NCBI GenBank assembly: GCA_003557765.1
Contig: PWNO01000192.1
Coordinates: 1 to 36,772 of the forward strand
Direction of reading: 5' to 3'
Length of the DNA: 36,772 nt
Source: Bacteroidales bacterium
GTDB lineage: Bacteria; Bacteroidota; Bacteroidia; Bacteroidales; UBA7960
This document shows, piece after piece, positions 9,848 to 29,990 of this stretch (positions are counted from its first letter, which is position 1; every line of letters starts with the position of its first letter). The notes below the pieces were generated by a model. It did no database searches. It saw nothing but the letters and a program-made list of their open reading frames with translations, and was not told the origin of the DNA. Both the position numbers and the translations under genes were made by a program.

Positions 9848-9892
9848 ATGCCCAAAGCGGGTTGCATCCTGGACGCAACCCGCTTTGGGCAT
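9848..9892. terminator. Strong bidirectional terminator between DUF3467 and dnaE2
   Basis: An 18-bp perfect inverted repeat (9848-9865 with 9875-9892) has a 9-nt loop and is followed by ATTATTTT. It lies between two convergent genes, so it probably ends the rpl-rpo transcript on the plus strand and the dinB-dnaE2 transcript on the minus strand. Confidence 0.85.
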
Positions 9893-14367: not shown

Positions 14368-14372
14368 ATCTG

Positions 14373-14407
14373 CTATTGGCTTTTAGCTATTGGCTTTTGG
14401 CAAGTAG
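14373..14407 (-). repeat. Five 7-bp repeat units upstream of dinB
   Basis: On the plus strand the units are CTATTGG, CTTTTAG, CTATTGG, CTTTTGG and a decayed CAAGTAG, in exact 7-bp phase. On the dinB sense strand this becomes CCAAAAG/CCAATAG. The same family in the same sense orientation lies upstream of the methyltransferase gene at 29106-29154. A 10-bp palindrome, CCTCCGGAGG, follows at 14410-14419. Confidence 0.7.
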
Positions 14408-21383: not shown

Positions 21384-21413
21384 TTTGTATTTGCGAATAA
21401 ATATCTAAATTTG
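21384..21413 (+). promoter_or_regulatory. Promoter of rplS
   Basis: TTTG (21384-21387), an 18-nt spacer and TAAATTTG (21406-21413) match the Bacteroidota -33/-7 consensus at the expected spacing. Transcription would start near 21420 and give a leader of about 160 nt that contains the structured element below. Confidence 0.7.
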
Positions 21414-21511
21414 CACTCCTTTTTACATTGGAACAGATAATCTTCAAAACCATATCGTGATGAAACGAGCCCTGCCAATATATTGACACACATGAGAATG
21501 ATTATGTCATG

Positions 21512-21582
21512 GCGAGTTTGGCTTCGCCGAGCTCGCAAGTGCTCGGTTCATATGACCGAAATATAAAAATTATAAACAGATG
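21512..21582 (+). promoter_or_regulatory. Structured rplS leader element
   Basis: First, an 11-bp stem (21512-21522 with 21526-21536, two G-U pairs, loop TTC). Second, CCGAG (21527-21531) can instead pair with CTCGG (21542-21546). Third, TCGGT (21543-21547) can pair with ACCGA (21555-21559). These pairings compete, as in an attenuator or autoregulatory leader. The segment from 21527 to the start codon recurs at 29218-29276 in front of another gene. L19 autoregulation is plausible but inferred. Confidence 0.6.
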
Positions 21583-21936
21583 AATCAGACGGAAATCATG
21601 AACTTTGTGCAGGATAGCCTGGTGGAAAAGAGGGAATGGCCCGCTTTTAGCGCAGGAGATAACATCACTGTACATTACAAGATCAAGGAAGGTAACAAGG
21701 AACGTATTCAGCCTTTTCAGGGTGTGGTTCTCCAGCGTCGTGGCAGCGGTGCCACAGAAACATTTACTGTGAGGAAGATATCAGGAAACATTGGCGTGGA
21801 GCGAATCTTTCCGGTTCATTCACCTTTTATTGATAAGATTGTTTTGAACCGCCGCGGTCTGGTAAGACGTGCACGCATTTTTTACCTGCGTAAGCTTCGT
21901 GGCAAAAGCGCCCGTATCAAAGAGCGCCGCTACTAG
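21580..21936 (+). CDS. rplS: 50S ribosomal protein L19
   Basis: The 118-residue protein matches L19: an N-terminal helix, then the SH3-like barrel with [40 protein letters not shown] and [21 protein letters not shown] basic tail follows ([20 protein letters not shown]). L19 sits at the 30S-50S interface near bridge B8. Start is the ATG at 21580, at the end of the repeated leader element. The gene has its own promoter and is followed by a strong terminator, so it can be expressed independently of trmD. Confidence 0.97.
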
Positions 21937-29011: not shown

Positions 29012-29105
29012 ACACAGGATCCGGGGCATACGTGAAATTACCATGATGGGATTATTGACTTACAGAGGGATGATTATTGTCAATTGGGCGTTCAGACTAA
29101 GTAGG

Positions 29106-29154
29106 CTATTGGCCATTGGCAAGAAAGCCAAAAGCTAAAAGCCAACAGCCAATA
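29106..29154 (+). repeat. Seven 7-bp repeat units upstream of the methyltransferase gene
   Basis: Units CTATTGG, CCATTGG, CAAGAAA, GCCAAAA, GCTAAAA, GCCAACA and GCCAATA run in unbroken 7-bp phase. The first two are inverted relative to the last four, so GCTATTGGC (29105-29113) and GCCAATAGC (29148-29156) can form a 9-bp stem. The downstream half matches, in sense orientation, the repeats in the dinB leader. Confidence 0.7.
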
Positions 29155-29217
29155 GCAGTCTTGTTGAAAATTCAAACATCAGATAACCAATAAGTTGAAA
29201 AAACGCAAACAGATGAA

Positions 29218-29276
29218 CCGAGCTCGCAGAGTGTTCGGTTCATGTGACCGAAACATAATAATTATAAACGGATGAA
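29218..29276 (+). repeat. Copy of the rplS leader element in front of the methyltransferase gene
   Basis: Aligned with 21527-21584, 53 of 59 columns are identical with one 1-nt indel. The copy contains CGAGCTCG, both alternative stems (GAACCGA 29215-29221 with TCGGTTC 29235-29241; TTCGGT with ACCGAA), and the AATTATAAAC-nG-ATGAA start region. A shorter direct repeat of AAACnGATGAA flanks it (about 29207-29217 and 29266-29276). The copied ATG at 29272 is out of frame with the real gene. Confidence 0.8.
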
Positions 29277-29337
29277 AGCATGGATATTTTTGGCAGTGCT
29301 TTTCAGGATTACCTATCCGGTGAAAAAAACGGAATAA
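29272..29337 (+). CDS. Possible 21-codon upstream ORF made by the copied start codon
   Basis: The ATG of the copied leader opens a 21-codon frame (MKAWIFLAVLFRITYPVKKT...) that overlaps the methyltransferase start at 29280 in another frame and ends with TAA at 29335-29337. If translated it would compete with initiation at 29280. There is no evidence of a functional peptide; it may be incidental. Confidence 0.25.
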   Translation: MKAWIFLAVLFRITYPVKKTE

Positions 29338-29990
29338 TTAAGGTATATTCAGATGTCGCCGGCCCTGAAGAGCTCCCGGTGTCCTATTTTTTCCGCTCAT
29401 GGGAAGAGATGCCGAAGTATGAACAACTGATGCTCAGTCATTCAGAAGGTCATGTGCTGGACGTAGGTGCAGGTGCAGGCAGCCATGCGCTGGAGTTGCA
29501 AAAACAAGGCTTTGCTGTGGATGCAGTTGACATATCGCCAGGAGCTGTTGATGTTATGCGTAAGCGTGGCGTGAAAGGGGCATGGTGTGGTGATTTTTTT
29601 GATATGGTCAAAAGGGAATACGAAACAATTCTTTTTATGATGAATGGGGTCGGGATCGCAGGCTCCCTTCCTGGGCTTTTTAAAATGCTCAGACATGCTG
29701 ACACATTATTGGCACCAACAGGACGTATCCTTATAGAATCAACTGACTTGATTTATTTATATGAAGAGGAGGACGGCTCATACAGGATTCCTATGGGCGA
29801 AAAATATTACGGGGAATTGCAGTACCACCTTGTCTATAAAGACTTAAAAACCAATCCTTTCCCCTGGCTTTTTGCTGACTTTGACAGTTTAAAACATGCC
29901 GCCAGTACCTGTGGATATAAAACCCGTATCCTGTATGCTGGTGAAAAACATAATTATGTGGCGGAACTTAGAAAAGATTCAGGCTGCTAA
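29280..29990 (+). CDS. Class I SAM-dependent methyltransferase
   Basis: The 236-residue protein has a Rossmann-type methyltransferase core. Motif I is VLDVGAGAGSHALELQ (about 60-75), followed by VDAVDISPGAVDVMRKRG with the acidic residue that binds the SAM ribose, and then a YETILFMMNGVGIAG motif IV region. An N-terminal segment, LPVSYFFRSWEEMPKYEQ, is typical of a Bacteroidota group annotated only as class I methyltransferases. The substrate is unknown. The start at 29280 fits this N-terminus. The leader carries a 7-bp repeat array and a copy of the rplS leader, both unusual. Confidence 0.85.
   Translation: MDIFGSAFQDYLSGEKNGIIKVYSDVAGPEELPVSYFFRSWEEMPKYEQLMLSHSEGHVLDVGAGAGSHALELQKQGFAVDAVDISPGAVDVMRKRGVKGAWCGDFFDMVKREYETILFMMNGVGIAGSLPGLFKMLRHADTLLAPTGRILIESTDLIYLYEEEDGSYRIPMGEKYYGELQYHLVYKDLKTNPFPWLFADFDSLKHAASTCGYKTRILYAGEKHNYVAELRKDSGC

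Follow-up and report, generated by a model that had tools for sequence, protein, structure and literature searches.

A small dispersed element in a Bacteroidales bacterium and its relatives that very probably inserts at (A/G)TGAA, often exactly on a start codon

The 36,772-nt stretch of Bacteroidales DNA analysed here in its entirety (the window) carries two copies of what is very probably a small, gene-less mobile element with a median length of 120 bp, which inserts at (A/G)TGAA and often comes to lie exactly on a start codon. Its dispersal, its near-identical copies between unrelated flanks and its empty insertion sites are evident from genome comparison, which also places it exactly on three predicted start codons, those of rplS, ftsA and purE, with ATGNA on both sides and the sites empty in relatives. 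A more tentative and on balance doubtful proposal is that it typifies a class of mobile elements able to recognise start codons, in which an internal CAT pairs with both the target ATG and the ATG at the element's own right end. The interest of the element lies in this exact placement in essential genes, and in the want of an Rfam match at gathering score or of a description in the literature searched, which lay largely outside subscription journals.

The original prediction had identified a repeat shared by 21527-21584 and 29218-29276, and self-BLAST of the window reproduced it as real, with 53 of 59 columns identical and one indel (89.8%, E 8.8e-15). Allowing up to 3 mismatches, the 19-nt core TCGGTTCATNTGACCGAAA occurs twice in the window, compared with a mean of 0.02 occurrences in shuffled sequence, where none of 100 shuffles held two. 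The two alternative stems that had been described, and the G-C versus G-U difference between them, are likewise present in both window copies; arms 1:2 read CCGAGC/GCTCGG and CCGAGC/GTTCGG, the GCTCGG and GTTCGG arms accounting for the differing pair, and arms 2:3 read TCGGT/ACCGA in each. Arm 2:3 is no feature of the wider family, since simple string matching detects it in 14 of the 18 copies that hold an extra hairpin and in 1 of the 37 that do not. The 59-nt repeat is the right-hand portion of a larger dispersed element, the features of which are collected for both loci in Table 1.

Table 1. Features at the rplS and methyltransferase loci, in window coordinates.
Feature	Position	Strand	Basis or remark
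TTG upstream of promoter-like box TAAATTTG	21385-21387	+	sequence
Promoter-like box TAAATTTG, native rplS leader	21406..21413	+	sequence; equivalent directly before rplS in element-free L001
Left flank ATGAA, likely original rplS start	21460..21464	+	sequence; L001 reads GCGATGAATCAG uninterrupted
Copy 1 of the element, 115 nt	21465..21579	+	G035 copies; model match 21472-21584, E 1.7e-7
Optional 30-nt hairpin insert TGGCTTCGCCGAGCTCGCAAGTGCTCGGTT	21519..21548	+	comparison of copies with and without insert; missing from shorter copies
CATATG 'anti-start' arm (CATSTG in most copies)	21549..21554	+	could pair with left ATG or right CANATG
Right ATGAA, current rplS ORF start	21580..21584	+	ORF 21580-21936
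rplS, ribosomal protein L19	21580..21936	+	PF01245, E 5.7e-45
Decayed longer relative, in tandem before copy 2	29032..29212	+	left flank GTGAA 29032-29036; filler inverted repeats GCTATTGG/CCAATAGC
Left ATGAA of copy 2	29213..29217	+	sequence; direct repeat AAACAGATGAA/AAACGGATGAA, spacing 59
Copy 2	29218..29271	+	model match 29213-29276, E 7.2e-7
Right ATGAA of copy 2	29272..29276	+	opens 21-codon frame, out of frame with methyltransferase
Methyltransferase-domain gene	29280..29990	+	Methyltransf_25, _23 and _11 above cut-offs

The closest L19 relative found is that of a Bacteroidales MAG (L001; L19 92% identical), the rplS leader of which starts like that of the window and then reads GCGATGAATCAG. 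The leader in the window runs up to GTGATGAA (21460-21464), is followed by 115 additional nt and only then reaches a second ATGAATCAG (21580). Because the L001 leader is uninterrupted and ATGAA stands on both flanks in the window, the element appears to have been placed on the rplS start codon. The box TAAATTTG in the native leader is promoter-like, the Bacteroidota consensus being TAnnTTTG. A sister genome (G035; L140) carries the same insertion, with leaders 91.9% identical over 221 bp to that of the window, and elsewhere in that genome, for instance at L129, there are copies that match copy 1 with identities of up to 96% over 125 bp; the rplS copy is thus, on the aligned leaders, an insertion common to the two genomes. 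The old rplS start (21460-21486) opens an 8-codon frame, MKRALPIY, which recurs as MKRAMPIY in copies of G035. The optional hairpin GGCTTCGCCGAGCTCGCAAGTGCTCGG (21519-21548) also occurs inverted beside other copies in L099 and L136, in the manner of another small mobile palindrome lodged within the element.

The second copy lies near, not on, the start of the methyltransferase gene, since its ATG at 29272 stands 8 nt upstream of, and out of frame with, the long ORF that begins at 29280. In the sister genome a full copy precedes the same gene (L238), and copy 2 resembles that copy without the part lying between two CCGAG repeats; it probably arose by a deletion that removed the first hairpin and that would have proceeded via these repeats. 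Directly upstream, window positions 29053-29223 match the upstream element of another locus (L132) with 78% identity over 185 bp (E 7e-41), and that locus carries two elements in the same order as the decayed relative and copy 2. The family model (R1) gives no match to the decayed relative at 29032-29212. Part of the filler of this relative (29127-29158) has a 32-bp inverted match at 14370-14401 (87.5%), so the filler is itself a repeat. Elsewhere in the window, the 45 bp at 9848-9892 are 93% identical to their own reverse complement.

Beyond the window, the element is dispersed among related genomes, most of those surveyed being drafts. A right-end pattern (up to 3 mismatches) was found in 16 of 98 relatives of G003, with 22 occurrences in G035. 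Among 98 relatives of G035, 22 carry an exact left-end pattern. Reversed-pattern controls gave no occurrence in either of these 98-relative searches. Exact left ends number 21 in G019, 20 in G035 and 17 each in G003 and G010, and another left-end pattern, with 3 mismatches, matches G019 at 36 places, G038 at 22 and G259 at 12, those in the last genome, among the matches listed, all falling on one 4.81-Mb contig. Of 393 genomes sampled from the order of G035, 9 contain the left-end pattern; of 395 sampled from the phylum, G035 itself is the one that does. Six copies in G259 are mutually 92-98% identical (gap columns excluded), and their 80-bp flanks are 27-28% identical in ungapped comparison. 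Tandem copies exist. Viral contigs contain two exact pattern matches of identical sequence and no model match, and a search of plasmids for the element returned no match. The genes downstream of copies include ftsA, purE, rpiB, metH and those for macro-domain and MoxR proteins, among others, and a scan of ten downstream proteins assigned them to families with no relation to one another: transglycosylase, RpiB, MoxR, macro domain, ketopantoate reductase, MetH, alginate export, glycosyltransferase, GFO/IDH/MocA oxidoreductase and prephenate dehydrogenase.

The anatomy of the element, as drawn from 54 right-end-matched copies and 22 insert-free copies (alignment A2), follows the order ATGAA, hairpin, CATSTGACC, A/T-rich stretch and CASATGAA. 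The first hairpin is formed by AACGAGCCATG.../...CATGGCGAGTT, or by AACCTCCAT.../...ATGGAGGTT in another subfamily, and leads into a conserved stretch, TTGACACACACG..ATGATTAT, that precedes CATSTGACC; the A/T-rich stretch terminates in TATAAACAS, after which ATGAA follows. An extra 30-nt hairpin is present in some copies, including that at rplS, and other fillers in others, and copies of G259 (L361, L363) carry a different hairpin, of the CCCGATTGGTATCGGG type, just past the CAT of the putative guide. Counted from ATG to ATG in 101 parsed copies, the unit spans 88-279 bp (median 120), with 82 copies within 80-160 bp. The left flank of these copies is ATGAA in 83, GTGAA in 3 and another sequence in 15; the right flank, where the parse required ATG, is ATGAA in 100 and ATGCA in 1.

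Both hairpins display apparent covariation. The two helices comprise 18 pairs, and over 22 sequences the paired share of cells is 80.5%, against 74.3 +/- 0.9 in shuffled alignments, and 18 cells carry double changes, against 8.9 +/- 2.0, neither value being reached in 500 shuffles; slid partners are 17-37% paired. Two weaker measures are the number of pairs with double changes (6 versus 3.8 +/- 1.0, reached by 17 of 500 shuffles) and of further pair types (9 versus 7.4 +/- 1.4, reached by 101 of 500). The structure was derived from the same sequences on which it was tested and the shuffles ignore kinship, so that the covariation constitutes support rather than proof. On the right side, the fourth base of CATSTG covaries with the one that precedes the ATG: in 78 out of 101 parsed copies the two form C-G (41), G-C (20), A-T (3) or no pair (14). 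In the rplS copy these bases are A and G and hence unpaired; the left partner of CATSTG is nearly always ATG, for which reason no covariation signal arises on that side. Where the extra hairpin is missing, most copies are predicted to fold the right AUG with CATSTG in a 6-bp stem, whereas in both window copies (copy 1 folded from 21461) the left ATGAA region is predicted to pair with GGTTCAT and to leave the right ATG free. The same CAT may therefore face either ATG and, at the RNA level, could hide either start codon. Folding z-scores range from -2.8 to -3.2 for the window copies but only from -1.2 to -2.2 for two other copies.

Filled and empty sites can be compared at three loci. In G035, the ftsA copy is bounded by GGAG-ATGCA and ATGCACTCTTCT, with ATGCA on both sides; this is the only one of 30 ftsA loci with a model match, and L242-L267 display the end of ftsQ, a short spacer and the native ATG. 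In the ftsA locus of G038 (L261), a short hairpin and then AAAATATAAACAT-ATG stand just ahead of the start in the manner of a right end, without a model match, and perhaps represent a further subfamily. At purE, G047 (L291) carries a clear copy and G021 (L308; E 0.005 and 0.015) a decayed one, and the model found no match at the purE start in the other 28 of 30 loci; these include the truncated L316, and L309, where a copy stands away from the start. At rplS the site is filled in the window and in G035, and the model has no match there in any of 80 fetched L19 loci.

How far start codons are favoured was gauged from 134 distinct copies found by their left ends, of which 14 with less than 500 nt downstream were dropped. 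Among the remaining 120, the first right-end ATG opens an ORF of at least 80 codons in 58 (48%) when the right end is allowed up to 2 mismatches, a count that becomes 52 at up to 1 mismatch and 55 at up to 4. In the rest, a later right-end ATG does so in 2, another copy comes next in 16, no such ORF follows in 29 and no right end was found in 15. In 97 control loci of L19, ftsA and purE, 109 ATGAA ORF starts stand against 153 intergenic ATGAA (271 RTGAA), and with first-ATG ORF calls only, the share of start codons expected from available target sites is 42% for ATGAA and 29% for RTGAA. The observed 48% is modestly above this range, so that an RTGAA target together with survival may explain most of the start-codon placement. 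Orientation provides the clearer signal: with tandem copies counted apart, the next gene is co-oriented for 87 of the 120 copies and opposite for 19, the remainder comprising 10 left ends within an ORF call and 4 without a gene inside 700 nt, and at control sites the corresponding numbers are 144 and 120.

The search for a mobilising enzyme found none. Y1 transposase genes (PF01797, E <= 0.001, a search that a divergent TnpA may escape) occur in 17 of 28 element-bearing genomes, G020 being counted as bearing on a model match, and in 4 of 7 others; 51 fetched Y1 loci examined with pattern and model have no element ends around the gene and only one copy, 1.2 kb away. BLAST matches near Y1 genes are mainly filler repeats in two loci. 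With no association and no flanking copy across these genomes and loci, Y1 transposase was rejected as the partner. An autonomous long version was looked for in 20 left-end stretches of G259, G035 and G019, with right ends sought over 3 kb, and none was found; the first right end lies at most 340 nt from the left end, which leaves no space for a transposase gene, and two stretches that ended at a contig edge had none.

Among other routes of mobility, the element might be the remnant of a MITE-type DNA transposon mobilised by a DDE transposase with a 5-bp target duplication, as ATGCA on both sides at ftsA and ATGAA on both sides in most parsed copies would suggest. The ftsA case does speak for a perfect target duplication, but three copies with GTGAA on the left and ATGAA on the right (L108, L114, L131) speak against it, and 15 of 101 left flanks are neither ATGAA nor GTGAA. 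The ends ATGAAACGAGCC... and ...AAACACATGAA do not form an inverted-repeat pair in alignment A2, and a strict target sequence is unusual for DDE-type transposons. This origin is thus unlikely. Copying of an RNA element by a reverse transcriptase in trans would accord with an element that is structured and mostly in sense orientation relative to the next gene, but RVT_1 (E <= 0.001) was detected in only 3 of 14 element-bearing genomes, 2 of them above the cut-off, and is missing from the copy-rich G019, G038, G003 and G010, all counted on drafts, which makes such a route very unlikely.

The original prediction had also raised a cis-regulatory RNA, for example an L19-responsive leader. Such an RNA would be inherited with its genes and would hide or free the start codon by means of alternative stems. 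The double changes in two hairpins, the right AUG predicted within a 6-bp stem in most copies without the extra hairpin, and the window copies predicted with the right AUG free and the left AUG region paired are all features that such an RNA might possess. However, the covariance model (E <= 0.1) gave no match at rplS in the 80 L19 loci, including that with the 92%-identical L19, although many of these loci are distant and a decayed copy could escape the model; the sole match among them (L003) lies elsewhere than at rplS. Comparison with Rfam, proposed at the outset with known L19 leader motifs in mind, returned nothing at gathering score in the window and three other loci, and at E up to 5 three loci gave nine sub-gathering matches, mostly of miRNA type. 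Inspection of neighbouring genes confirmed that copies precede many genes, but these lack a common function, and tandem copies, gene-less copies and the empty sites at ftsA and purE also argue against inheritance with genes. The expectation of further copies with covariation was borne out, but about half of these copies are not at gene starts. Absent at rplS in 80 loci and present before unrelated genes, the L19-responsive leader was rejected, and regulation by such an RNA in general is most improbable. The alternative put forward from the start, a small mobile or duplicated repeat bearing a start codon, is the one that dispersal, empty sites and tandem copies favour; the window feature is a real small mobile repeat and the regulatory reading is unnecessary. 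That the family model matches the 36.8-kb window clearly at only two places might suit a chance or one-off duplication within this genome, but the many copies with covariation in other genomes reduce this to a negligible prospect.

In the preferred reading, a small mobile element would insert at an (A/G)TGAA target, and since genes of this group often begin with ATGAA, many insertions would coincide precisely with a start codon. On the left the original ATGAA would be kept and ATGAA would occur again at the right end, behind the A/T-rich stretch, such that the gene would start from the right-hand ATG and the old start would open only a short frame; the right ATG and its A/T-rich leader would presumably support translation. 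The least certain part of this scheme is that the element may move as single-stranded DNA through an enzyme acting in trans. Its internal CATSTG would then pair on the left with the ATG of the target and on the right with CASATG, and a single guide would set both ends.

Mobile elements that insert in essential genes normally kill them. An element that lands on start codons and gives the gene a ready translation start could, if the reading is true, spread through essential genes such as rplS, ftsA and purE at little cost and might later switch between two starts. To occupy the starts of essential genes with an in-frame ATG behind would be a distinct lifestyle for selfish DNA in compact genomes. 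The element would also alter the 5' ends of mRNAs at numerous loci, give rise to small upstream frames and lead the annotation of gene starts astray. Should the guide model hold, it would exemplify how simple base pairing can direct an element to start codons, and would suggest a mobilising enzyme not yet known.

Several known systems share features with the element. Like members of IS200/IS605 and the REP sequences of TnpA-REP, it is short, has no inverted-repeat ends, bears hairpins near both ends and uses a short fixed target, and some of its internal bases could pair with the target and with the end, in the way that guide and cleavage tetranucleotides pair in IS200/IS605 (PMC6006769). It differs from them in having one common guide, not two, and an ATG at its right end; none of the 51 fetched Y1 loci has a Y1 gene flanked by its ends. 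The GT[AG]G foot that defines REP (TnpA-REP), subclass 2.6 being exempt according to PMC6006769, is absent from the hairpin foot of the element in alignment A2. The element may be related to these systems. The (A/G)TGAA target also recalls HEARO/IscB elements (RF02033), which insert after ATGA/GTGA, but the present element is shorter and has no space for an endonuclease gene. Identity with HEARO was rejected, as RF02033 has no match in 46 genomes of relatives (E <= 1, stricter filters); 1 of 14 control genomes matched, below the cut-off. With ribosomal protein leaders (L19) it has in common one copy ahead of rplS, but it is not conserved there and stands before unrelated genes. The BrickBuilt MITE of Porphyromonas gingivalis is likewise a dispersed non-coding repeat of the same phylum, and short tandem fillers also occur in certain copies of the present element. 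According to PMC4596501, one genome holds 19 copies of BrickBuilt; the core is a 23-nt tandem repeat, the terminal inverted repeats measure 12 bp, the target duplications read GAAA/AAAA, and the distance to coding sequences is 49-591 nt. Set against that description, the present element is without inverted ends, and 58 of its 120 copies reach a start codon.
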